From Comamonadaceae bacterium (lineage in GTDB: Bacteria; Pseudomonadota; Gammaproteobacteria; Burkholderiales; Burkholderiaceae_C), in contig JAECRA010000046.1 in NCBI GenBank assembly GCA_015999985.1, forward strand, positions 1 to 34,678: a DNA stretch of 34,678 nucleotides, read 5' to 3'. Position numbers and translations under genes: made by a program. The notes below the pieces were generated by a model. It had not been told where the DNA came from. It worked only from the letters and a program-made list of their open reading frames with translations, and searched no databases. Below are positions 12,703 to 28,480 of this stretch, one piece after another. The first letter of the stretch is position 1. Each line of letters starts with the position of its first letter.

Positions 12703-13521
12703 ATGGAAACTTCGACTGATCCCAAAGCACCAGCGGTCCTGGAGAGGCAGCTGTTGATCATGGAATTGCTCAGCCAGCACCCTGAAGGCCTGGTCTTCAG
12801 CAAGATGCGGGAGAGCCTGGGGCTTCCCAAAGCCACGTTGCATAGACTGCTGAGTGGTCTGCTCCACGCGGGATGCCTGGAGACCGACCCACCATTGAAT
12901 GAAGCTGACGAAGGCTCTTCGGCCAGACGCATCTATTGGCTGGGGCCGCGCATAGGACGTTTACTGGGAGCAGCCGCATCACCCAACCGCCTGGCAACGC
13001 TCTCACAAGGCATCTTGCGCGAGCTGGCCGAGCAATTCCACGAAACGGCGTTTCTCAGCATGCTGCGCGGCACAAAGATCGAAAGCATCATGATGATGAC
13101 GCCGCCGAGGGACTGGTACGGCTACGTCAACCCGGGCCATCTGATGCCTCCGCATGCTGCGGCATCGGCCAAGGCCATCCTTGCCTTTCAACCCGATGAC
13201 CTGGTCCGGCAGATCTGCACCGAACCTCTTCCGGCGCTGACTCCCAGGACACTGACGACGGTGGAAGCGCTGCGAGCCGAACTGGAGAAAGTGCGCCGCA
13301 CGGGCATCGCCTGGTGCATGGAGGAAATCGACCGTGGTCTGATCGCGGTGGCCGCCCCGGTGCCCCTGGCTCAGGTGGGCGTGATCCTCTCGGTTTCCCT
13401 GGTGGGTCCGACCGATCGCATGAAACACACCGACAAGGCGGCGATGACCCAGGCCCTGAAAACAGCTGCCAGCCGCCTGGCCACCCTCTACGCCGGGCAA
13501 CTTAGTGCGGAAACCTCGTGA
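12703..13521 (+). CDS. IclR-family transcriptional regulator
   Basis: A 272-residue protein with the family's two-part layout. The N-terminal winged helix-turn-helix (about 10-70) contains KMRESLGLPKATLHRLLSGL. The C-terminal effector domain (about 90-265) includes LRELAEQFHETAFLSMLRG, the ASAKAILAF helix and a late GIAWCMEEIDRGLIAVAAPV strand, all normal for IclR proteins. It is divergent from the hydrolase-amidase-transporter operon and is followed 92 bp later, on the same strand, by the aspartate-dehydrogenase-like gene. It probably controls both directions. The inducer is unknown but should be the transported substrate or an intermediate. Confidence 0.93.
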   Translation: METSTDPKAPAVLERQLLIMELLSQHPEGLVFSKMRESLGLPKATLHRLLSGLLHAGCLETDPPLNEADEGSSARRIYWLGPRIGRLLGAAASPNRLATLSQGILRELAEQFHETAFLSMLRGTKIESIMMMTPPRDWYGYVNPGHLMPPHAAASAKAILAFQPDDLVRQICTEPLPALTPRTLTTVEALRAELEKVRRTGIAWCMEEIDRGLIAVAAPVPLAQVGVILSVSLVGPTDRMKHTDKAAMTQALKTAASRLATLYAGQLSAETS

Positions 13522-13613
13522 GCCCAGTCCCCTGAGAGTTCGCCGCTGGCTGTTTTCAATCGCTGCATGAGCGCTGACCTGCCATGCCTCGTTCACCTTC
13601 GTCTTTAGAAATC

Positions 13614-14423
13614 ATGATGCAATCGATCGCCCTTATTGGATATGGCGGCACAGCACAGACTGTGGTGCAGGAACTCGTCAAGGAAGTGGGCACCGCCAGG
13701 AGGAGCCTACATGTCGTCGTCCGGCCCGGCAAGCTCGATCACTACAGGAGCATGGTCCCCCCCGGTGTACAGGTCATGGACAGCCTGGCTTCTTTACCTG
13801 ACGACGTCGGGCTGGTGATCGAAACCGCTGGTCATTCTGCGGTCCTTCAGTACGGGCGCGAGGCGCTGAGCCTGGGCAAAAATTTTGGACTGATTTCCTC
13901 CGGCGCCCTGGCGGACGAGGCGCTACTCAACGATCTGCGGACAGCTTCCACGGACAGCGGCAAGCACCTTCTCGTCTTCAATGGTGCCATGGCGGCCATG
14001 GATGCGCTCACCAGTGCCAAAGCAGCCGGCTTGCAAACAGTCTGCTACACCGGCATCAAGCCGGCCAAGGCGTGGGAAGGGACCCCTGCGGCAGAACAGT
14101 TCGACCTCAACGCCCTGACCGGACCCACCGTGATCTTCGAAGGCAGCGCCAGGGAGGTTGCGCTGGCCTACCCCAAGAACGCCAATGTGGCCGCCACGGT
14201 GGCCCTGGCTGGCATAGGCATGGAAAAAACCTCCGTGCGACTCATTGCCGACCCGCATGCTCTGGTCAATCGCCACCGCCTGGATGGCACCAGCCCCTTG
14301 GGCCGATTTGAATTTGAAACAGAAGCACTGCCTTCTGCGTCCAACCCCAAGACTTCGAGCAGCACCGCCTACAGCATCGTCGCCTACCTTCGCGGTGGCC
14401 CCAACGCATTGCGGCTGGCCTGA
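13614..14423 (+). CDS. L-aspartate dehydrogenase-like NAD(P)-dependent oxidoreductase (NadX/DUF108 type)
   Basis: A 269-residue protein. The N-terminal Rossmann fold begins IALIGYGGTAQTV. The C-terminal part carries the family hallmarks YPKNANVAATVALAGIG, ADPHALVNRHRLDG (catalytic His candidate His221) and ALPSASNPKTS. Known members convert L-aspartate to iminoaspartate or oxaloacetate with release of ammonia, or run in reverse. The usual SGA near mid-protein reads NGAMAAMDAL here. I chose the ATG at 13614 (or the next codon) to start just before the Rossmann strand; an upstream ATG at 13584 gives ten extra residues without a ribosome binding site. No NAD-synthesis genes are nearby, so with IclR and the amidase operon beside it a catabolic role, perhaps on a different amino acid, is more likely. 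Confidence 0.85.
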   Translation: MMQSIALIGYGGTAQTVVQELVKEVGTARRSLHVVVRPGKLDHYRSMVPPGVQVMDSLASLPDDVGLVIETAGHSAVLQYGREALSLGKNFGLISSGALADEALLNDLRTASTDSGKHLLVFNGAMAAMDALTSAKAAGLQTVCYTGIKPAKAWEGTPAAEQFDLNALTGPTVIFEGSAREVALAYPKNANVAATVALAGIGMEKTSVRLIADPHALVNRHRLDGTSPLGRFEFETEALPSASNPKTSSSTAYSIVAYLRGGPNALRLA

Positions 14424-14439
14424 AGGCCGCTCAGACCAA

Positions 14440-15354
14440 TTAGGCCGTTAGCCGCTCCATCGCCTCACGGTACTTGGCGGCCGTTCCCGCGATCACATCC
14501 GATGGCAGCACCGGGGCAGGTGGTGATTTACTCCATGGCTTGCCATCTACCTCGGCCTGCTCCAGCCAGTCGCGCAGGAATTGCTTGTCGAAACTGGGCG
14601 GGTTGATACCTTCCTGGTAGCTATCGGCAGGCCAGTAGCGCGATGAATCCGGTGTCAGCACCTCATCCATCAACACCAACTCGCCTGCATCATCCAAGCC
14701 GAACTCGAATTTGGTGTCGGCAATGATGATGCCCTTTTTCAAGGCGATGGCGGCAGCACGCTCGTAGAGTTGGATGCTGATGCCGCGGATCTTCTCGGCC
14801 AAATCCAGGCCAATCATCTCAACCGTGCGCTCGAAGGTGATGTTCTCATCGTGCTCGCCCATTTCCGCCTTGGCGGCGGGCGTGTAGATCGAATGCGGGA
14901 GCTTGCTGGCGTTGTTCAAACCCTCAGGCAGCGGCACACCACACACAGAGCGGCTTTCCTGGTATTCCTTCCAGCCGCTGCCGGCCAGGTAACCTCGCAC
15001 CACCGCCTCTACGGGGATGGGTTTCAAACGCTTGACCAGCATGCTGCGGCCAGTGACCTGAGCCACTTCGTCGGCAGAGACCACGCTCTCTGGCGCATCA
15101 CCCGTCAAGTGGTTGGGCACAATGCCCTTGAGCTGTTCGAACCACCAGAGTGCCATCTGGGTCAACAACTCCCCCTTGCCGGGGATAGGCTCGCCCATGA
15201 TGACGTCAAAGGCACTGATGCGGTCGCTGGCGACCATGAGAATGCGGTCGTTGCCAACGGCGTAGTTGTCCCGAACCTTGCCGCGCGCGAGCAGCGGCAA
15301 GCTTTGCAGGGAGCTGGTGTGCAGAGCAGAGGTGTTCGGGGAAGCGGCAGTCAT
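14440..15354 (-). CDS. purC: Phosphoribosylaminoimidazole-succinocarboxamide synthase (SAICAR synthase)
   Basis: A 304-residue enzyme joining CAIR and L-aspartate at the expense of ATP in purine synthesis. Signature segments are [49 protein letters not shown] (given here in parts), [10 protein letters not shown] and [13 protein letters not shown]. Length and N terminus fit the longer proteobacterial form. It is separated from the upstream fba gene by a strong terminator, so it has its own promoter in the short gap or depends on read-through. It converges with the aspartate-dehydrogenase-like gene with 16 bp between. The purE/purK genes, which I recall often following purC in Comamonadaceae, are not present. 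Confidence 0.97.
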
Positions 15355-15377
15355 GAATGGGTCCTTGCAATCGCATT

Positions 15378-15413
15378 AAAAAAAGCTGCGGGCCTTGAAG
15401 GCCGGCAGCTTTT
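15378..15413. terminator. Strong intrinsic terminator after fba
   Basis: A 16-bp inverted repeat with one mismatch: AAAAGCTGCGGGCCTT pairs with AAGGCCGGCAGCTTTT around a tiny loop. On the minus strand it is followed by a run of seven T, so it should end fba transcripts efficiently. The A/T flanks on both sides make it potentially bidirectional. Confidence 0.9.
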
Positions 15414-15427
15414 GCACTGAACAGCTC

Positions 15428-16492
15428 TTATTTCACCTGCTGTGCCAGCTCGCCTTTGGCGTACCTGTCAGCCATCACTGAGAGCGATACGCCTTTGACC
15501 TTGGCGCCCTGACCTTCGCATCCGAACTCGAGGTAGCGTTGCTTGCAAATGGCCTTGGCGGCTTCGCGAGCGGGCTTCATCCATTCGCGCATGTCGAACT
15601 TGTCGGGGTTTTGGGCCTGGAACTGACGCACCGCAGCAGTCATGGCCAGGCGGACGTCGGTGTCGATGTTGATCTTGCGCACACCATGCTTGATGGCTTC
15701 TTGAATCTCGGACACCGGCACGCCGTAGGTTTCCTTCATCTTGCCGCCATACTGGTTGATCAGAGCCAGCAATTCCTGCGGTACAGACGACGAGCCGTGC
15801 ATCACCAGGTGGGTGTTCGGAATACGCGCATGGATTTCCTTGACACGTGCAATGGCCAGCACATCACCTGTCGGGGGGCGCGTGAATTTGTACGCGCCGT
15901 GGCTGGTGCCGATGGCGATGGCCAGGGCGTCGAGCTGGGTTGCCTTCACGAACTGCGCGGCTTCCTCAGGGTCGGTCAGCATCTGGTCATGGCTGAGCTT
16001 GCCTACTGCGCCCACGCCGTCTTCTTCACCTGCCTCGCCAGTTTCCAGGCTACCCAGGCAACCAAGTTCGCCTTCCACCGTGGCTCCCAGCTTATGGGCC
16101 ATGGCAACGACCTGACGCGTAACGTCGACGTTGTAATCAAAATCGGCCGGGGTTTTGCCGTCCGCCCTGAGCGAGCCGTCCATCATGACCGAGCCAAAGC
16201 CCAATCCGAGAGCGCCTTGGCAAATTTCCGGGCTGGTGCCGTGATCCTGGTGCATGACCAGTGGAATGTGCGGATAGGCTTCTGCGGCAGCGGCGATCAA
16301 ATGCTTGATAAAGCTCTCGCCCGCGTATTTGCGTGCCCCTGCGCTGGCTTGCAAGATCACAGGCGCGCCCACCTCATCAGCGGCAGACATCACTGCCTGC
16401 ACCTGTTCCAGGTTGTTCACGTTGAAGGCTGGAATGCCGTAATTGTTGGCTGCTGCGTGATCGAGCAGTTCGCGCATGGAAACGAGAGGCAT
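15428..16492 (-). CDS. fba: Fructose-bisphosphate aldolase, class II (Calvin-cycle subtype)
   Basis: A 354-residue zinc aldolase interconverting fructose 1,6-bisphosphate with DHAP and glyceraldehyde 3-phosphate. Visible are the zinc/active-site segment [10 protein letters not shown] (Asp83, His84), GTSHGAYKF and VMHGSSSVP with further zinc-binding His residues, and NIDTDVR for phosphate binding. The starting block [27 protein letters not shown] is typical of the CbbA-like subtype common in betaproteobacteria, where it usually serves glycolysis and gluconeogenesis. It sits in a cluster with pyk and pgk. Expression probably starts near the TAAAAT element at 16558-16563. Confidence 0.97.
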
Positions 16493-16832: not shown

Positions 16833-18269
16833 ATGCACTCCCCGACACAAAAATGTCTCACCAGGATGGAATGCGCGGACACTCGCAAGCCTGAGAAGTT
16901 TTGGAGCCTAGGGCTGCTCGGCAAAGTTCTTTCTGCCTTGGTGCTAAGCCTCCTGGTGGGGCAAACCGCCGTACAGGCACAAAGCGTCCTGTTCCTGCAC
17001 ACCACAGAAGCTCCGGCAGATGCGATCTACGCATTCGACAATATCAGGCAGGAGTTCATTGACGCGGGAGCTACGGTCACTCAGCAGGGCGGCCTCAACG
17101 CAGCCGGCAGCGTCACCCCGGCAACCTTTACCGCCGTGGGAGGGGGACGATATGACATTGTCATCATGGCCAGCGCCTATGTTTTGATTGACCCCTCCAA
17201 TTGGACACAGATCAACCAGGCTATTCAGCAGCGGCTTGCCAACGCGTTCATCATGTTCAACGATGGTTGCTGTGTGTCTGCCAACGTGAGCGCCATGGCA
17301 CAAAGCATTGCGGCTACAGGAGCCTTCACGCCCTCGCTGGGGACCACAGCCCTCGGCACCAAACTGTTGACGGTGCTTAACGCCAACTCTTCCTATAGCG
17401 GATCCTTTTCGGGACTGAATCCGTTTGCTGGTGGGGATGTGACTTACTTCAACAATGTTCCTGAGGAAAATGCACTGTACCTGGCCCCCGGGTCGCCACA
17501 ACCTGCCCAGGACAGCACAGTCAATGATGTATACGGCTTGCTTGTACCGTTATCTCAATCGTATGCCGGGGCGGGCGCCTGTGTATTTGCCACGGTAGAC
17601 GTCTCACCGTTTGCAGACCCGACGGGGGGTCTGTATGGGTCAGGAATCTATACACCGGAGAACAAAGGCAAAGTGGGACCAGCTTTTCTGAACGCCATTG
17701 CGGCAGGTGGCGCGTGCGGCATACCCGCTTCCATCACAAAGACCTTTGCGCCCACCAGCATTGGCCCCGCAAGCGCTTCCACACTGACCATCACAGTTCA
17801 GAACTTAGGGCAGACTCCGGTCAGCGGACTTGATGTCACCGACAACCTGCCGTCCCCACTCGTGGTGGATGGTTCTGCCAGCACGACTTGCGTCGGCGGT
17901 GTTCTATCAGCCACAGCAGGCTCTACCAGCGTATCACTCACAGGCTCCACCCTCCCCATGGGTGGGTGCACCATCACCGTGCCCGTGCGCTGGCCGGAGG
18001 CACAAGCGGCGCTTTGCGCGGCACCGGGCACCAGTGTCACCAACACCATCACCCCCGGGACAGACTTCACCACCAGCCAAGGACAGGTCAATACCCCTGC
18101 CACTGCCACGCTGAGCTGCCTGGGCGATCTTCCTGTCATTCCAGTGGACCCCGTCGCCCCGGTGACCGCAGTACCGACGTTGTCTCAACTGGCGTTGGCG
18201 GCGCTGGCGCTGCTGCTCGGCTTTGCTACCTGGGGGCAACGGCGAGTCAAATTCGCAAGCGGTAAGTAG
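16833..18269 (+). CDS. Exported protein with DUF11-like repeat and IPTL-CTERM sorting tail
   Basis: A 478-residue predicted surface or periplasmic protein. A signal peptide is plain (LGKVLSALVLSLLVGQTAVQA, cleavage near residue 49). Residues ~50-295 form an alpha/beta region (SVLFLHTTEAPADAIYAFDNI onward, with YDIVIMASAYVL) that I do not assign to a family. Residues ~298-350 match the bacterial DUF11-type beta repeat (ITKTFAPTSIGPASASTLTI). The last 32 residues are VPTLSQ, a hydrophobic helix and a basic WGQRR tail: the IPTL-CTERM signal, thought to be processed by an exosortase-like enzyme. No exosortase gene is in the window. Start uncertain: ATG 16833 or the in-frame ATG at 16866, neither with a good ribosome binding site. 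Confidence 0.85.
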   Translation: MHSPTQKCLTRMECADTRKPEKFWSLGLLGKVLSALVLSLLVGQTAVQAQSVLFLHTTEAPADAIYAFDNIRQEFIDAGATVTQQGGLNAAGSVTPATFTAVGGGRYDIVIMASAYVLIDPSNWTQINQAIQQRLANAFIMFNDGCCVSANVSAMAQSIAATGAFTPSLGTTALGTKLLTVLNANSSYSGSFSGLNPFAGGDVTYFNNVPEENALYLAPGSPQPAQDSTVNDVYGLLVPLSQSYAGAGACVFATVDVSPFADPTGGLYGSGIYTPENKGKVGPAFLNAIAAGGACGIPASITKTFAPTSIGPASASTLTITVQNLGQTPVSGLDVTDNLPSPLVVDGSASTTCVGGVLSATAGSTSVSLTGSTLPMGGCTITVPVRWPEAQAALCAAPGTSVTNTITPGTDFTTSQGQVNTPATATLSCLGDLPVIPVDPVAPVTAVPTLSQLALAALALLLGFATWGQRRVKFASGK

Positions 18270-20062: not shown

Positions 20063-21445
20063 TCACTGCGCCAGGAACGGGTCTACATATTTACCAATAT
20101 GCCCGCTGAGATGTGAATAGGTAATCTCTCCTTGCGGGCGCATTTGCGGATCAACTTGTGGATTACCAGCGGAATATTCAATACTTAATTTCAGATCACC
20201 TTCTCGAATTTGCAAAATCGGTTTCCCACTAGCAGATAACAATCCCTGCTCACTTTCTACCGCTATCTCCATGTATTCTGCCATCGCATGGAATGGCATA
20301 TTTTCACTCTTATCAAATTCCACTAACACATCCAACTTCAAATTACCGTCCACGCCTCTGCTTACTTCGTATTTTGCCCTCAGTTCCTCCTGGATAACCG
20401 CTGAGTTTAATTGCACGCCTTTCACGGCTCTATTCCAAATAATGCCATTGGTAGTTTGAACGCAAGTTTTCTTAATAAACTCGACTTCGTTCTTTGAACA
20501 ACCTAGCGCTTCGCTGGCTGCGACGAACTGCTCCTCGTTGCTACAAAAAACCCCACCCAAAAATACTCCGGTGCGAGGCAAATCCTTTTCCCATTGCGTC
20601 AATTGCTCGGAGTCGATCGCTTGTCCAATGACCGCTTGCAACTGATCCTTGATGGCATGCTGCTCGAATTGCACATCATGCTGATCAAAAAACAGTTCTC
20701 TCTTCGTGGTCTCAAATCTGAAATTTTCTCCATCACCAAGATCGATGGCAAATGCAATCCTCCCCGCATCTCCACCTGACACTTCCTGCTGTGTGAAGTT
20801 GCTTTTGTAGTCGTCTCCCACCAGAGACTTCAACCTCTCAAAAGACTGAAACTTCAGCCGAGCAGAAGTTTCCGGAGAATAAAGGTCAAAGGCTAGTTTT
20901 CTAAGTTCAGTGCGATTAGTGCCGCCACACATGTCCAAAAACCGCAGAACAATCCGCTCGAAAAACCCCCCTATGCTGTCTCGATCCGCACCGCGCCCCA
21001 CAGAAGACTTGACGCTGGCAAGGTCGCTGCTTCGGATAAAGCCCTGCAAGGTAACTTCTGTTTCCGGTGCAGATTGTTCTTCAGGCGCTGAATCTGCACT
21101 TCTAAGCATCTTTTCGAGCTTGTTGCGCGTGGCTGCAGTTAATTCACCATAGTTGGTGCCTTTGGCCGCCGCGATGGCCCCAGCTCCTGGAGAATCAGAC
21201 AAGCGCTGAGTCACCCTGTCTTGCATCTGAGCTATTTTTTCGTCGCTCCAGCCCATCAACTGCTTGTTTTCCTTGGCATCGCCGAGCAGTTGCTGAGACC
21301 GGTCCCCGTTCCCTATGGAGTAATCGTGGTCGTTGTAGCTAACGATCTGCGTGACGGCGCCACCCTCGGGGCGGGAGAGTTCCGCATGCTTTTCACCTTC
21401 AATATAAGCCGCTGCGTCGCGACTGGGGTTGGCATGGATAGGCAC
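20063..21445 (-). CDS. Hypothetical protein, AT-rich ORFan between pyk and pgk
   Basis: A 460-residue protein I cannot assign to a family. I chose the GTG at 21445 because AGGAG lies 7 bases upstream; the open frame also has an upstream GTG at 21475 without such a site. There is no signal peptide or membrane helix. The first ~130 residues are polar and probably disordered (SRPEGGAV..., APEEQSAPETE); the rest looks globular, with a helical block GGFFERIVLRFLDMCGGTNRTELRKLAFDLY and later beta-rich parts (KLDVLVEFDKSENMPFHAMAEYMEIAVE, split by turns). Base composition is clearly more AT-rich than the flanking glycolytic genes. A disordered N terminus and foreign composition would fit a type III-type effector, but no hrp/PIP-type promoter was found, so this stays speculative. 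Confidence 0.75.
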   Translation of the reverse strand: MPIHANPSRDAAAYIEGEKHAELSRPEGGAVTQIVSYNDHDYSIGNGDRSQQLLGDAKENKQLMGWSDEKIAQMQDRVTQRLSDSPGAGAIAAAKGTNYGELTAATRNKLEKMLRSADSAPEEQSAPETEVTLQGFIRSSDLASVKSSVGRGADRDSIGGFFERIVLRFLDMCGGTNRTELRKLAFDLYSPETSARLKFQSFERLKSLVGDDYKSNFTQQEVSGGDAGRIAFAIDLGDGENFRFETTKRELFFDQHDVQFEQHAIKDQLQAVIGQAIDSEQLTQWEKDLPRTGVFLGGVFCSNEEQFVAASEALGCSKNEVEFIKKTCVQTTNGIIWNRAVKGVQLNSAVIQEELRAKYEVSRGVDGNLKLDVLVEFDKSENMPFHAMAEYMEIAVESEQGLLSASGKPILQIREGDLKLSIEYSAGNPQVDPQMRPQGEITYSHLSGHIGKYVDPFLAQ

Positions 21446-21664
21446 TTCAAAACTCCTGGTCTTTGGAATCTGCACATGAAAGCGTCATACGGCTGGGTAG
21501 CGCGCAAGAGCTCCGGTGGAAGCTCAATGCTCTCATGAATAAGTAGTAACCGGCGGATCGTTTAAGTTCCATCCGCACCTCTCTGAGGCTGTTACATGCT
21601 TCAGACATGCTCATGCGCCCCGCTCAGTGCAAATTCCAAGCGTCAGGAATGTGCCGGTGACCAC

Positions 21665-22983: not shown

Positions 22984-23121
22984 TCACGACACCCCACGCC
23001 AGTAAAGGATGGACAACAACACAATCAATAAGAGCACGAGGACCTCACCTTTTGCGATGCGGCGCTCCGCCTTCAGGTCGATGGCCTGAAGACGCTCGAA
23101 TTCGGATTCACTCTTGTTCAT
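22984..23121 (-). CDS. 45-residue single-pass membrane protein coupled to the glycosyltransferase
   Basis: The short frame starts at an ATG that overlaps the glycosyltransferase stop codon by 4 bp (ATGA), which is strong evidence that it is translated. The product has a charged amphipathic N-terminal half (MNKSESEFERLQAIDLKAER) and a single hydrophobic helix (EVLVLLLIVLLSILYW) ending in RGVS, so it should sit in the inner membrane with the long tail in the cytoplasm. I know no family for it. Small membrane partners are common in synthase-dependent polysaccharide systems (PgaD is one, though it has two helices), and coupling to the glycosyltransferase suggests such a role here. Confidence 0.7.
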   Translation of the reverse strand: MNKSESEFERLQAIDLKAERRIAKGEVLVLLLIVLLSILYWRGVS

Positions 23122-24596
23122 TTCAAGATGGTTCCCTTGCCGGTTTTGGGCGTTTTGTCCCAGCGCATTTCGGCTTTTCGCCACTCGGCCACCATGGCTG
23201 CCAACGCCACGGCGCAATTGAACGGGCCATAACCTACCAGCAGCAGCAGAGGGTCACGGAGCCAGTTGGGCCCCCCCGCTCGCTCCAGCCGATAGACACC
23301 CCAGGCGGCCAGCATGCTCAGGCTGGTCCAGGAAAAAATGAAATAGCGCAATCCATCCCAAAGGTAGGTGGTCACGGCGCTGGAACCAGGCGGCGGCCAC
23401 AAAGATACCCATTGCGGAGGCAAGCTGGACAAAATCATGATGGCCAGGGTGATGAGTCCGGGGTAGGCCAGCCCCTCGAACCAGGTCCTGCGTGCAGTGG
23501 CGGGATCGATGACGAAGGAAAAACCAGTCACAAAGAGATGGACGAGAAAGGTGGTGATCCATAGTCCACCGAGCGCCTTGCGAGCCAGATCGGGCTCGAT
23601 GAAGTCCAGCCAGAGCAAACCGATGGACGAGCCAATCATCAAGAGCGGCATGAGCACGATACTGAAGAACACCAGGCCAAACCAGAAGCTGCCCAGGCCC
23701 GGGTGCACCCCAGAGCGAAACCAGAGGTGGCGGTAGGCCGCACCCAGCTGCAAGTTGCCACGCGCCCAGCGCAGGCGTTGCTTCCATAGAGAGACCAGGC
23801 TTCCTGGCTCCTCCGCCCACACCACGGCATTGCCGTCAAATACGGCCAGGCGGCCTCCGAGCTGCGTGCGGAACGTGGTGAACGTATCTTCAGCCAGTGA
23901 CGTGGTGTCTATACGCCCACCAATGGCCAGCATGTTTTCGCGGGTATGCAGTTGCGCGCCACCGGCCAGGCATGCAAGCGCGCCCGTGACGTTTTGCGCC
24001 CTCCGCGCCGCAGCCTGCGCAGTGATGTACTCGAACGCGATGAAGCGGCACACCAGATTGTCTGGCTGGCTTCCTTCTTTGATGTAGGCGGTCACTGCGC
24101 CTACTTTGGGGTTAGCCAGGTGGCGCGTCATGCGGCGCAGCGTCAGCGGTTCGAACAGCACGTCTGCGTCCATGATCATGACCGCCTGGGCCCAGGTCTC
24201 TGCCAGGACGATGTCCAGGCCATGGTTGAGCGTATGCGACTTGCCTTGTCCGCCTTTTTCACGGCGCAAATGAAAAACACGGCCGGGATACTGCGCCATC
24301 TTCTGCTGCATCAGTTCGGGCGTGTGGTCTGTACTGGCGTCATCCACCACATACACGCGTACCGCGTCTGATGGGTAGGACATGCTCATCAATGAATCTA
24401 CCGTCGCGCCCAGGCTGGGTCCCTCATTCCAGGCCGGCACAATAAATGCCACGCGCGGCGTGTAATCTCTGCATTGGTCCAAGCGATGGCGTCCGGCATG
24501 AAAGCCCACCAGTGCAAATTGCAGAAACGACACCACCACCGGGAGCGTTCCTAGCGCGACCAGTATCAAAGGAATGAAGGCGATGGCGGAGTTCAT
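23118..24596 (-). CDS. Membrane-embedded family 2 glycosyltransferase (processive, PgaC/cellulose-synthase-like)
   Basis: A 492-residue inner-membrane glycosyltransferase. An N-terminal helix (IPLILVALGTLPVVVSFLQF) is followed by a cytoplasmic GT-A domain with FIVPAWNEG, the UDP-sugar Asp pair VVDDAS (Asp85-86), the metal-binding MDAD (143-145), the acceptor/base motif LAEDTFT (Glu236-Asp237) and the QRLRW motif (273-277) that marks processive synthases. Several helices follow from about residue 295. I took the ATG at 24596; an upstream in-frame codon adds 11 polar residues with no signal. The small membrane protein gene overlaps its end. It probably polymerises and exports a polysaccharide; a sugar specificity cannot be read. 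The family resembles E. coli YaiP and PgaC. Confidence 0.9.
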   Translation of the reverse strand: MNSAIAFIPLILVALGTLPVVVSFLQFALVGFHAGRHRLDQCRDYTPRVAFIVPAWNEGPSLGATVDSLMSMSYPSDAVRVYVVDDASTDHTPELMQQKMAQYPGRVFHLRREKGGQGKSHTLNHGLDIVLAETWAQAVMIMDADVLFEPLTLRRMTRHLANPKVGAVTAYIKEGSQPDNLVCRFIAFEYITAQAAARRAQNVTGALACLAGGAQLHTRENMLAIGGRIDTTSLAEDTFTTFRTQLGGRLAVFDGNAVVWAEEPGSLVSLWKQRLRWARGNLQLGAAYRHLWFRSGVHPGLGSFWFGLVFFSIVLMPLLMIGSSIGLLWLDFIEPDLARKALGGLWITTFLVHLFVTGFSFVIDPATARRTWFEGLAYPGLITLAIMILSSLPPQWVSLWPPPGSSAVTTYLWDGLRYFIFSWTSLSMLAAWGVYRLERAGGPNWLRDPLLLLVGYGPFNCAVALAAMVAEWRKAEMRWDKTPKTGKGTILK

Positions 24597-24733
24597 GCGG
24601 AGAGCCTGACCGTGGTGCACGCCAGACAATGGGTAGCATAAGGCACTTCACCAAAAAACCCCGTCATTGACGAGCAGTCTGAGGCCTGATGGACGGGCCC
24701 CTAGCCCCCACATTTCAACAACAGAACCAATCC

Positions 24734-25702
24734 ATGAGAATTCTCTTGACGGGCGCAGGCGGCCCCTCCGCCATCAGTGTGTGGAAGAGCCTGCGAGACG
24801 ACCACCAGATCTTCATGGCCGACATGGACCCCAAGGCGACTGGCCTGTACCTGGTGCCCGCAGATCAGCGCCTGGTCGTGCCACGCGGCGATTCGCCCTC
24901 TTTCGTCGATCACACCTACGAAGCCTGCCGTTCGCTGGGTATCGAACTGCTGATTTGCACGGTAGATGCCGAACTGGCGCCTCTGGCGCATGCGCAAGCG
25001 CGGTTCGAGGCCATCGGCGTGCGCCTGCCTCTGTCGCCCCTGCCAGCTCTGGAGTTGTGCCGCGACAAACTGGGCTTGCTGGACAAGCTCAAGGGAGTGG
25101 TCCCGGTGCCGGACTACACCGTGGTGGATGCCGACACGCAAAACAAGCCCCATGTGTTTCCCATGTTCGCCAAGCCCCGCGTCAGCGCCGGCTCGCGCGG
25201 CGCCACCGTCATAGCAGATGCGGGGGAGTTGCGAGCCCTGCCGCAAGATGGCTCCTATCTTCTGCAAGAGTTGCTGCCGGGAGACGAATACTCGGTCGAC
25301 GTCTATCTGAAGGCCGATGGCGCCGCCATCGCAGCAGTGCCGCGCGTGCGCATGAAGACAGACTCCGGCATTGCCGTGGCTGCACGCACGGTGCACGATC
25401 AGGACGTCATAGACGCCGCCATTCGGGCGGCGCAGACTGCAGGTATCCGGTATGTGGCCAATGTGCAGTTCAAACGTGCCGCCGATGGCCAGGCCAACCT
25501 GCTGGAAATCAACCCTCGCTTTCCCGGCACGCTTCCGCTCACGGCAGAAGCAGGCGTCGACCTTCCCAACTTGTTGGTAGCTGAGGTTTCAGGCCAATCC
25601 ATGCCCACCGGTCTCTTGCCATTTAGAGAGCGCATGGTGGTGCGCTATTGGTCCGAACAGTTTTTCGATCCCCAGGAGTGGAGGCAACTGTGCGGGAACT
25701 AA
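24734..25702 (+). CDS. ATP-grasp family enzyme (carbamoyl-phosphate-synthase-like fold)
   Basis: A 322-residue protein starting MRILLTGAGGPSAISVWKSL, an N-terminal Rossmann-like pre-ATP-grasp domain. The ATP-grasp core is seen in FPMFAKPRVSAGSRGATVI (ATP-binding Lys and glycine-rich loop), SYLLQELLPGDEYSVDVYL and the metal-binding NLLEINPRFPG. Such enzymes join a carboxylate, activated as acyl phosphate, to an amine or thiol. The start was placed at 24734, where the conserved strand begins. It is divergent from the glycosyltransferase gene (137-bp gap) and overlaps the phosphatase gene by 13 bp. It may attach an amino acid to a sugar of the polymer or make an activated precursor, but the substrate is unknown. 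Confidence 0.85.
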   Translation: MRILLTGAGGPSAISVWKSLRDDHQIFMADMDPKATGLYLVPADQRLVVPRGDSPSFVDHTYEACRSLGIELLICTVDAELAPLAHAQARFEAIGVRLPLSPLPALELCRDKLGLLDKLKGVVPVPDYTVVDADTQNKPHVFPMFAKPRVSAGSRGATVIADAGELRALPQDGSYLLQELLPGDEYSVDVYLKADGAAIAAVPRVRMKTDSGIAVAARTVHDQDVIDAAIRAAQTAGIRYVANVQFKRAADGQANLLEINPRFPGTLPLTAEAGVDLPNLLVAEVSGQSMPTGLLPFRERMVVRYWSEQFFDPQEWRQLCGN

Positions 25703-26274
25703 GGCTGTGGCTGGTCAGGCACGGGCAAAGTACCGCCAATGCCGGAGCCCCTGCGAGCGACCCCCTGCAAACGCCTTTGACCAGCCTGGGCCTCGAACAG
25801 GCCCGCGCAGCAGCGCTTCAAGTGGGTGTGGCGCCCGATCTTCTGGTGGCATCCCCTATGCGGCGCGCCGCCCAAACCGCAGACGCGCTGCACGCGCGCT
25901 GGCCAGAGACCTCTCGTGAGACTTGGCCCATCAGCGAATTCACTTACTTGAGCCCTCCGCGCTGCATTGGCACCACAGGGCCGCAGCGCAGCGAATGGGT
26001 TTCCGACTATTGGGACCGATGCTTGCCAGAACATGTGGATGGCGAAGGTGCTGAATCTTTCGCTGCGTTCATGTCCAGGGTCAGAGACTTTCATGACCGC
26101 GCGACAGCGCGAGGCGGTTTTATCGTCGCGGTGGGACATGGGCAGTTTTTTCGCGCCTATGCGTGGGCCCGGTCCCTGGCCTTTGCAGCGACGCCTGAGA
26201 CGATGCGGGAGTTTCGCCGCCGCGAAGTCGCAGATCCTATGCGCAATGGAGAAATTGTGAAGATCCCGTCATAA
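25690..26274 (+). CDS. Histidine phosphatase family protein (phosphoglycerate-mutase-like)
   Basis: A 194-residue phosphatase. The catalytic RHG motif is in LWLVRHGQSTAN (His11), the phosphate-pocket segment ASPMRRAAQTA follows (Arg58 region), and the second catalytic His is in VAVGHGQFFRAY (His150). The start is a GTG at 25690 with GGAGTGGAGG just upstream, overlapping the ATP-grasp stop by 13 bp, so translation is probably coupled. Phosphatases of this branch remove phosphate from sugar phosphates or similar small molecules. In this setting it may finish or balance the ATP-grasp reaction or trim a phosphorylated precursor; that is inference. Confidence 0.88.
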   Translation: MRELRLWLVRHGQSTANAGAPASDPLQTPLTSLGLEQARAAALQVGVAPDLLVASPMRRAAQTADALHARWPETSRETWPISEFTYLSPPRCIGTTGPQRSEWVSDYWDRCLPEHVDGEGAESFAAFMSRVRDFHDRATARGGFIVAVGHGQFFRAYAWARSLAFAATPETMREFRRREVADPMRNGEIVKIPS

Positions 26275-26360
26275 GAGCAGGATCTGTGACCACCTGAACG
26301 CGACCAATGTGTGAGAGCTCTGTGTTCAGGGTTTAGCGGCCAACGTCGAACGACCAACCG

Positions 26361-27383
26361 TCACCGCTCGCACTGCCGAACGACTTCCATAGGCTCTGCC
26401 ATGCCATAGCCGGTATAGCGCCCCCAATAGCGCGCTGTGGCGCGAATGTGGTCCGCGTCCATACTTGCGCTGCGAGAGACCTGGCTGTGATAGGCCGCAA
26501 TGGCATCCACCTTGGTCCCGATATGGCTGGAGATGTCGATGAACAGGTTGGGCCTGAATTCAATGGTCGACGAAGGTGCCTGGTAGCAATACACGTTGGG
26601 AATGTCGCGCGCGCCCACAATGCTTGCCAGATGCGTATTGCGATGGTCCTGATGAGCGTCATGGCGCGAATGGGTGTACACGTGTGTGGGCGAGACGGCG
26701 CGCACCACTTCCTCAATCAGGCCAATGGTTTCAAGGCCTTCGGAAATGCGTGCATCCGGAAGTTCGCCAATTTCCAGGCGAGCCCCCAGCAGCGCCGCTG
26801 CGCGCTGCGCCTCTGCGGTGCGTACCACCGCGTCACCGCCATTGGTGCCGCGGCTAAGCGTGAGGATAATCACTTCATCACCCCGGCTATGGTGCCTTGC
26901 AAGCGCGCCGCCGCAGCCGATTTCCACATCGTCGGGGTGAGCGCCGACGGCGAGAACGGTTTTGCGTTCGTTCAGCAAACGCCGGCGTGAGTCACGGGCC
27001 AGCACAAAAACCTGCTCCAGGAATTCATTTCTGGCCAGAGGCCTGAACAAAAGGCCTTCTGCCCGGTGGCGCAGTGCCCGACGCACCGCATCCATTCCTT
27101 GCTCGCGAGCGATGGCAAGAACCGGCGTGCCGTGGCCACTGAGTCGGATATCGTCGCTGAGGCCCACCACAGCCGCGGGCTTGGCGTCCATATCGGCAAC
27201 GATCAAGTCCCAGCGCTGCTTGCGCAGTTGCAAAAGACCCTCGGCGGAACTCTCGCAATGAAGGACTTCTATTTCACCTGTGCCTTCAAGCCAGGCACGT
27301 ATAAGAAGCGCTTGCTCATGGTCAGGCTCCACGAGCAGAACTTTGAAAGGGTCCAAAGTGAGGTATTGCACAGCGGGCCTCAT
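26361..27383 (-). CDS. Receiver-domain / PIG-L deacetylase fusion
   Basis: A 340-residue two-domain protein. Residues ~13-130 form a response-regulator receiver fold: acidic pair region VEPD (Glu19, Asp21) and phospho-acceptor candidate Asp64 in IVADMDA. The usual Thr/Ser after strand 4 is Ala92 and the conserved Lys is Arg114 (LLFRPL), so normal switching is doubtful. Residues ~142-330 are a PIG-L/LmbE zinc deacetylase with AVGAHPDDVEIGCGG (His149, Asp151, Asp152) and the zinc-binding HDAHQDHRNTH (His244, His247). These enzymes remove acetyl groups from N-acetyl sugars. The start is the ATG at 27383, overlapping the YaiO-like gene by 4 bp. It is cytoplasmic, so it probably acts on a precursor rather than on exported polymer. 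Confidence 0.9.
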   Translation of the reverse strand: MRPAVQYLTLDPFKVLLVEPDHEQALLIRAWLEGTGEIEVLHCESSAEGLLQLRKQRWDLIVADMDAKPAAVVGLSDDIRLSGHGTPVLAIAREQGMDAVRRALRHRAEGLLFRPLARNEFLEQVFVLARDSRRRLLNERKTVLAVGAHPDDVEIGCGGALARHHSRGDEVIILTLSRGTNGGDAVVRTAEAQRAAALLGARLEIGELPDARISEGLETIGLIEEVVRAVSPTHVYTHSRHDAHQDHRNTHLASIVGARDIPNVYCYQAPSSTIEFRPNLFIDISSHIGTKVDAIAAYHSQVSRSASMDADHIRATARYWGRYTGYGMAEPMEVVRQCER

Positions 27384-28480
27384 TTCCAGTAAAGGCGCCA
27401 ACCCAGTTCCAGCTCAGACTCTCTTTTGAAGGAGTTGTAGCGCGCGGTGACCAGCAGCGCGTTATTGCGGCCCACGGGAATGACCGCTCGGCCATGCACA
27501 TCGTTGAAATTCGGGTTGGTTCCGTGGCTGGCCCCCAGCACGAGCATGGCGCCCGCATTGTTGCGATAGAACAGGTCTGCCACCACGGCGTGAGAGTGAC
27601 CAAAATCAGGGGTATAGCCGGAGTAAAGCGTCGTTGTAAGAGCCCAAGGCCCCACCAGACTCACAGTAGCGCCGGCCTGCACCAAACGATTACCCCACCC
27701 GGGACCGAAGCTTTTGCGGACAGCACCAAAGACTTCCCAGCGCTGGTTCAATTGCTTGGACACCGAGAGCTCAAGCCGCTGCTCGGTTGGCGAGTCCTTG
27801 CGGTCCCGGTTTTCGTAGACAAGCCCCAAGCCATAGTCACCAGGGACCTGCCAGCGGTAACCCAGACGCAGCACATTCGAAGGCAGGCGTGAGGGATCGA
27901 GCTGGTTGGCCACCAACAATTCGCGGCTGTTGTGATGCAGCCCTAGTTCAAATGAATTCCTGGCGTCCAGGGCTGCTTTCAGGCTGACACCCCCACCCCA
28001 GGCAGATCCGGTTTCGTTGTGAACACGGCTTCCCACGACATCCATATGAAAGCGATGAGTGGCGTCCGTACCCGCGAGTCCTGCGGCAGCTTCTGCATTG
28101 GCTGGCTCGCGTGCCAACACCGCGTTGAAGCCATTGCGTGCGGTGTCGGTCTGGTAGTTGGCCAGCGCGATCCAGGCCATGCCATTTTGGGCGTCTATAT
28201 CCTGCGGGTCACGCTGGAGCATTTGATCGTAGATAGTCCGCGCGTCGTGCAGACGATATTGCGCGCGAGCCACGCGGGCCAGACCCAGCAAGGCGGGGCG
28301 AGAGACGGAGTCCAGCTCCAAAACTTGCTTGTAGAGATTTTCTGCGGCGTCGAAGTCGCCGGATTGTTCCAGTGTGGTGGCCCGCTCAAGCTGGGACTGG
28401 ATGGGCACTTGGGCCAGTGCCATGGGGCAAGCGCAGGAGACAAGCAGCGCGGCGAAAGCCACGCGCATCGCGGACATCAT
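27380..28480 (-). CDS. TPR protein with YaiO-type outer-membrane beta-barrel
   Basis: A 366-residue exported protein. The N terminus (MRVAFAALLVSCACPMALA) is a signal peptide; cleavage may be after ALA, or LVSC could serve as a lipobox. Residues ~27-135 are about three TPR repeats (ERATTLEQSGDFDAAENLYK, PALLGLARVARAQYRLHDAR and following). From ~140 the sequence alternates short amphipathic strands ending in an aromatic C terminus (LELGWRLYWK), as in outer-membrane barrels of the YaiO family. The start is the first ATG of MMSAMRV; the ribosome binding site is unclear. TPR plus barrel is also the layout of PgaA, the export pore for poly-N-acetylglucosamine. Translational coupling to the deacetylase supports a polysaccharide export role. 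Confidence 0.85.
   Translation of the reverse strand: MMSAMRVAFAALLVSCACPMALAQVPIQSQLERATTLEQSGDFDAAENLYKQVLELDSVSRPALLGLARVARAQYRLHDARTIYDQMLQRDPQDIDAQNGMAWIALANYQTDTARNGFNAVLAREPANAEAAAGLAGTDATHRFHMDVVGSRVHNETGSAWGGGVSLKAALDARNSFELGLHHNSRELLVANQLDPSRLPSNVLRLGYRWQVPGDYGLGLVYENRDRKDSPTEQRLELSVSKQLNQRWEVFGAVRKSFGPGWGNRLVQAGATVSLVGPWALTTTLYSGYTPDFGHSHAVVADLFYRNNAGAMLVLGASHGTNPNFNDVHGRAVIPVGRNNALLVTARYNSFKRESELELGWRLYWK

Follow-up and report, generated by a model that had tools for sequence, protein, structure and literature searches.

The stretch of DNA analysed here, called the window, comprises 34,678 nucleotides of contig JAECRA010000046.1 from a Comamonadaceae bacterium, whose assembly is a draft genome of 4.3 Mb that is 79% complete. 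Block 22984-28480 of the window encodes a glycosyltransferase family 2 (GT2) synthase, a 45-residue membrane protein, an ATP-grasp ligase, a histidine phosphatase, a receiver domain fused to a PIG-L type N-deacetylase (REC-PIG-L), and a tetratricopeptide repeat (TPR) protein with a predicted outer-membrane barrel (Table 1). The GT2 synthase, the ATP-grasp ligase, the PIG-L enzyme (usually receiver-fused) and the one-helix protein are repeatedly encoded next to one another, in Pseudomonadota as well as in Actinomycetota. On balance, the set seems to act in the manner of a synthase-dependent system, making and exporting an amino-sugar polysaccharide that is de-acetylated and probably re-acylated in the cytosol.

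The analysis establishes the gene content, the conservation of the neighbourhood, the intactness of the catalytic motifs, the prediction of a barrel and the co-distribution of the genes. For the polymer, its substrate, the order of the reactions, their cytosolic site and the control by phosphorylation, we infer the following scheme. The GT2 synthase and its one-helix partner would polymerise a nucleotide sugar and pass the chain through the inner membrane. The PIG-L domain would de-acetylate an N-acetylated amino sugar in the cytosol, either on the precursor or at the nascent end. The ATP-grasp ligase would most likely attach another carboxylate, such as an amino acid, to the freed amine, and the phosphatase may take off a phosphate on this branch of de-acetylation and re-acylation. 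Where the cell has an outer membrane, the TPR domain would guide the chain across the periplasm, and the 14-strand barrel would release it. The deacetylase, and hence the chemistry of the polymer, is probably switched by a histidine kinase encoded nearby in those lineages whose receiver is canonical.

To our knowledge, few synthase-dependent polysaccharides have been recognised. A core that is common to Gram-negative and Gram-positive bacteria makes what may be a new surface polymer readily accessible to genetics. A bolder and rather doubtful extension is that the set marks a widespread, unnamed class of surface polymers. In such a class, the amino-sugar acetyls would be swapped in the cell for another acid before export, the exchange enzyme would be a two-component response regulator (beside an H-NOX protein that senses nitric oxide (NO) in one lineage), and the synthase would have a one-helix micro-partner in nearly all carriers. 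No description of this gene set was found in the literature searched, a body of work largely outside subscription journals.

Recurrence of the gene set

The initial annotation, made by a model from the sequence letters, had read the six genes as three short transcription units of a coherent, possibly undescribed synthase-dependent system. All six genes are present with their coordinates and Pfam families confirmed, and inspection of the open reading frames (ORFs) in the window gives three overlapping pairs in three short units. The observation proves stronger than first stated. The coherent unit is borne out by the recurrence described here, and the claim of an apparently undescribed, synthase-dependent-like system stands in outline.

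Among 150 genomes of the same family, one other (G105) encodes a close full-length REC-PIG-L protein, with 54% identity, and its locus (L032) holds the same set. A scan of named genomes for the REC-PIG-L pair recovered at least 80 loci. These were split by rank before counting into 44 "full-type" loci (L033-L075 and L088) and 36 remaining loci, in which the PIG-L part was matched. L032 and L033 are the same genome region, and L033 alone was counted; for L036, L064, L066, L069 and L072, the recruiting match covered the PIG-L part or little more. The full-type loci hold the GT2 gene (at least 150 bits) in 34 cases, the ATP-grasp gene (at least 110 bits) in 38, a gene for a PHP phosphatase in 28, the histidine phosphatase gene in 7, and the TPR-barrel gene in 10. 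None of the 36 remaining loci holds such a GT2, PHP, histidine phosphatase or TPR-barrel gene, and one (L080) holds an ATP-grasp gene of at least 150 bits. Whole genomes were searched for 34 of the 44 loci, and 28 of them have a GT2 of more than 450 bits; it lies away from REC-PIG-L in two of these, on the same contig for L045 and on another contig for L054.

Because the first sample was chosen by REC-PIG-L, the test was repeated starting from the GT2. At least 13 of 297 genomes in an actinobacterial order carry the GT2, with at most five candidates scored per genome; two were known before, and all 11 other loci hold PIG-L, ATP-grasp and PHP genes. In an alphaproteobacterial order, the GT2 is present in 11 of 76 genomes, four of them known before, and each of the seven new loci holds the TPR-barrel, REC-PIG-L, ATP-grasp and histidine phosphatase genes as well as the small ORF. 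PIG-L, ATP-grasp and a phosphatase are therefore found in 18 of 18 new loci ascertained by the GT2. Neither of the outcomes that the initial annotation had held against a unit was seen: no scattering of the genes is apparent across the loci examined, and the GT2 falls short of every NCBIfam cut-off that would assign it elsewhere.

The distribution is patchy, with the GT2 present in one of the 29 genomes of the genus and in two of 200 from the Comamonas family. A census at E<=1e-60 gave at least 1/398 in the phylum and at least 1/399 in the order, in each case the genome of the window itself; these are lower bounds, with at most three candidates scored per genome in the rows listed. No GT2 relative was found in the viral or plasmid sequences searched, and three plasmid matches to REC-PIG-L span 57-66% of the query. 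A related but different cluster type is seen in L103, L083, L082 and L076, where PIG-L, ATP-grasp and GT2 genes stand in a row at just 28-42% identity.

Synthase, partner, and probable export and sugar-modifying proteins

All 41 aligned GT2 relatives (from 52 sequences collected) keep the DAD and ED motifs and the Q, R, R and W of QRxRW unchanged. The window protein has QRLRW, as the initial annotation had noted. Hydropathy places hydrophobic stretches in both its N- and C-terminal parts, and together with the motifs these point to the inner-membrane glycosyltransferase of a synthase-dependent pathway. All 41 relatives match the NCBIfam family PgaC_IcaA (best E 2.3e-40). In a GT2 tree of 49 rows, the 10 from Pseudomonadota are separated, with support of 82/66 that is not strong, from the actinobacterial rows and one myxococcal row. 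L042 contains two tandem GT2 synthase genes (12987-16005), both close relatives.

The 45-residue membrane partner that had been proposed from the window is real and recurs. Downstream of 50 GT2 orthologs, a separate ORF of 43-92 codons with one hydrophobic helix is present in 42, and 39 of these 42 start one base ahead of the GT2 stop codon. The small protein is fused to the GT2 in two Legionella genomes, and in L140 the small frame is present without the usual start. The count of 42/50 allows a CTG start, used by two of the 42, and omits L057 and L143; it becomes 40/51 when CTG is disallowed, as in the controls, in which the same kind of ORF followed other genes in 1/51, 1/58, 2/39, 1/7 and 1/11 cases. 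A profile built from 34 actinobacterial copies was searched against 4684 frames from 14 Gram-negative and myxococcal loci, and seven ORFs that follow a GT2 came out on top, with the window copy fifth at E = 0.36. Lower down, among unrelated frames, come the fused copies and that of L139, and the L037 copy is not among the matches listed. Given this E-value and the mixed ranks, position outweighs score for the window copy. In 52 of 52 aligned small proteins, a glutamate is invariant, with Asp or Asn four residues ahead, although the alignment was anchored there and is descriptive only. The small partner is conserved across phyla. The 45-residue protein, queried minus its first Met, has no Pfam or NCBIfam match, and is thus a micro-protein partner overlooked by family libraries.

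For the TPR-barrel protein, AlphaFold2 predicts (pLDDT 89.1) helices at 27-140 and 14 strands at 144-365. The TPR Pfam matches and the helices of the model agree with the periplasmic TPR protein of a synthase-dependent pathway. The barrel half aligns to OmpG, FadL and CymA among the 50 matches listed; PgaA, BcsC and AlgE lie outside those 50, which carries no information on them. The alignment of this protein used 10 of 12 collected sequences. The barrel tracks the presence of an outer membrane, and it was found in none of 44 actinobacterial loci (33 ascertained by REC-PIG-L and 11 by the GT2).

The PIG-L domain of the window matches PF02585 at 92 bits, versus a cut-off of 28.2, and has the metal-site residues H, D, D, H and H (the AHPDD motif and the second His motif). 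With a receiver ahead of it and no signal sequence in evidence, the domain is likely to be cytosolic. Canonical receiver residues are present in 24 of 36 aligned rows (from 58 sequences collected). In the window receiver the Asp is retained, but the acidic pair is altered and T->A and K->R changes are present, so that the acidic pocket, Thr/Ser and Lys of a phospho-receiver are not all present. In many carriers the receiver probably acts as a genuine switch; that of the window is probably either a relic or a switch of an atypical kind. A relative of histidine kinases is encoded near the unit in many actinobacterial loci, and the two such proteins compared with Pfam are PAS histidine kinases; the G105 locus adds a histidine phosphotransfer (HPt) protein and a hybrid histidine kinase. 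In many carriers, a sugar-modifying enzyme looks directly switchable by a histidine kinase. In L041 (Marinicella), genes for an H-NOX (haem-NO-binding) protein (1673-2224) and a hybrid histidine kinase (9-1688) are divergent from the REC-PIG-L operon, and the H-NOX protein is a possible NO input. A second REC-PIG-L copy adjoins a GT2 in L139 (163-1128), from genome G905, which also contains L034.

The closest solved relative of the ATP-grasp ligase by sequence is 2pn1, followed by carbamoyl phosphate synthases; further relatives are VanA, D-Ala ligases, amino-acid ligases, carboxylases and PylC (30 of 53 collected sequences were aligned). These relatives are compatible with the activation of an acid and name no substrate. 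The phosphatase is of two kinds. The Arg-His pair and the second His of the histidine phosphatase are invariant in 8 of 8 aligned sequences, and the metal-type His and Asp of the PHP protein in 14 of 14 (from 39 collected). The histidine phosphatase is found in 7 of 11 Gram-negative REC-PIG-L loci and in all seven alphaproteobacterial loci ascertained by the GT2, and the PHP protein in 27 of 33 actinobacterial REC-PIG-L loci, in all 11 actinobacterial loci ascertained by the GT2, and in the myxococcal L045. That the same slot is filled by two unrelated folds suggests that the reaction rather than the protein is under selection.

Alternatives and related systems

Several points weigh against the synthase-dependent, re-acylating reading. 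The roles in such pathways are a synthase, a TPR protein and an outer-membrane barrel of 16-18 strands, as set out in PMC9601211, and 14 strands are predicted here; the set would therefore "work like" such a system, as a variant. Re-acylation by the ATP-grasp ligase is proposed on chemical reasoning. The small ORF was not found after the GT2 in five of the 50 orthologs (L042, where the region downstream of the second copy runs off the contig, L063, L065, L141 and L142). Neither phosphatase is present in L035 and L041 within the DNA examined, so that an adjacent phosphatase is not required in every carrier; none is seen in L039 and L140 either, but both are contig ends. The receiver is non-canonical in 12 of 36 rows, including the window and L138, which has none. 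A GT2 ortholog is missing from six of the 34 whole genomes: L057 (with just 108 bits), L062, L067 (a draft of 1.7 Mb), L068, L071 and L073. Of the 36 loci where PIG-L alone was matched, 18 also have a distant GT2 (71-130 bits) nearby. Finally, five full-type loci (L057, L062, L068, L071 and L073) have REC-PIG-L with neither GT2 nor ATP-grasp at the thresholds used, and perhaps represent a second use of the fusion; in these five, REC-PIG-L lies near relatives of histidine kinases, also with no phosphatase at the thresholds.

It is possible but unlikely that the exported product is not a long polymer and instead resembles a Nod factor, as a short glycolipid or oligosaccharide. In the Nod pathway, the product of a GT2 synthase is de-acetylated and then given another acyl group inside the cell, and a deacetylase followed by a ligase resembles NodB followed by NodA. 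The families nearest to the GT2 include NodC, and solved PIG-L relatives act on small sugars. However, the GT2 falls far below the NodC cut-off, the deacetylase and ligase come from other families, and the set includes an export barrel. The TPR domain and barrel of the set are found only where there is an outer membrane, and such an arrangement is the usual exit of long polysaccharides (PMC9601211).

It is less probable still that PIG-L, ATP-grasp and the phosphatase make a soluble small molecule, with the GT2 polymer unrelated and merely co-regulated. The bacillithiol and mycothiol pathways proceed by de-acetylation of N-acetylglucosamine (GlcNAc) and then ligation. The solved PIG-L relatives de-acetylate GlcNAc compounds, BshB1 is among the structures matched by the PIG-L profile, and the ATP-grasp fold is that of a generic carboxylate-amine ligase. 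Unlike BshB and MshB, the PIG-L of the set is below the family cut-offs (NCBIfam BshB1 included), fused to a receiver and beside a polysaccharide synthase, and the GT2 stays with these enzymes in the 18 new loci across two phyla.

A diverged poly-N-acetylglucosamine (PNAG) system is very unlikely, although the roles are alike. PgaABCD, of E. coli and Bordetella, also combines an inner-membrane GT2 and its small membrane partner with a deacetylase and a TPR-porin, and in NCBIfam the window GT2 matches PgaC_IcaA best. Membership was rejected in that this match is 108 bits versus a cut-off of 422.3, and the deacetylase is of the PIG-L type, with no carbohydrate esterase family 4 (CE4) domain among the Pfam matches of the six proteins. 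PgaB is a periplasmic CE4 deacetylase according to the account of the PgaA-D roles in PMC5933820, so that the parallel with PgaB drawn in the initial annotation is weak: the window enzyme is apparently cytoplasmic and carries a receiver. The set also has a one-helix partner of 45 residues, an ATP-grasp ligase, a phosphatase and 14 predicted strands, and the same core occurs in Actinobacteria. That the genes are accidental neighbours can be dismissed despite their rarity, since their content is conserved in two phyla, the GT2-ascertained loci contradict it, and the block is absent from the same place in a congener.

Two further systems invite comparison. Cellulose (Bcs) and alginate systems share a synthase, TPR and outer-membrane barrel with the set, but their enzymes differ, BcsA is a distant sequence relative of the GT2, and no PilZ domain is among the Pfam matches of the six proteins, as had been remarked at the outset. 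The E. coli yaiO/yaiX/yaiP/yaiS neighbourhood likewise has a GT2, a PIG-L protein and a barrel, whereas the 10 kb of K-12 examined there contain a broken acyltransferase gene, and their annotation lists no ATP-grasp, histidine phosphatase, TPR or receiver protein. The proposed family match to yaiO, yaiP and yaiS did not survive pairwise comparison: YaiP (31% over 99 residues) and YaiO (no match) are not orthologs, and YaiS matches in its PIG-L part only (36% over 152 residues). Nor does the barrel appear to belong to the Pfam YaiO family: PF19413 is not among the matches of the window barrel at E<=10, nor among the 25 of 38 families listed for 10 relatives. The set appears to work as a variant of the synthase-dependent kind, and it is a member of neither the Pga nor the yai set.

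The locus and its neighbours

The Pfam assignments, strong for five of the six proteins (Table 1), have E-values of 1e-28 for PF13641, 1.3e-28 for PF15632, 1.8e-19 for His_Phos_1, 5.4e-26 for PIG-L and 6.2e-9 for Response_reg, in addition to the TPR matches. A scan for promoters and terminators found sites no commoner than in shuffled sequence.

Table 1. Genes of block 22984-28480, with coordinates in the window.
Product	Coordinates	Strand	Basis and features
45-aa membrane protein with a single transmembrane helix	22984..23121	-	ATG overlaps GT2 stop codon; motif [DN]xxxE before helix
Processive-type GT2 synthase, 492 aa	23118..24596	-	PF13641; DAD, ED, QRLRW, WDKTxK motifs; hydrophobic stretches
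ATP-grasp ligase, 322 aa	24734..25702	+	PF15632 and PylC-like N domain
Histidine phosphatase, branch 1, 194 aa	25690..26274	+	PF00300; overlaps ATP-grasp gene
Receiver (non-canonical) fused to PIG-L type N-deacetylase, 340 aa	26361..27383	-	PF00072 and PF02585
TPR domain and predicted 14-strand outer-membrane barrel, 366 aa	27380..28480	-	TPR Pfam matches, AlphaFold2; overlaps REC-PIG-L gene

The block is placed between azlD and pgk. The congener G015 keeps the flanks fmt-azlC-azlD and pgk, with one ORF of 343 codons (L146 4020-5051) separating azlD and pgk, so that the block was either gained here or lost there. In a second congener, G146, pgk is present, and azlC, azlD and fmt were not found within the 16 kb examined. 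The protein encoded at 16833-18269 of the window combines DUF7933 and DUF11 with an IPTL-CTERM sorting motif, and the C-terminus of the 343-residue protein of G015 looks, by eye only, like that of this protein. An ORF of 470 codons at 20063-21475, between pyk and pgk, has no Pfam match and a G+C content of 49.3%, versus 58.9% for the window.

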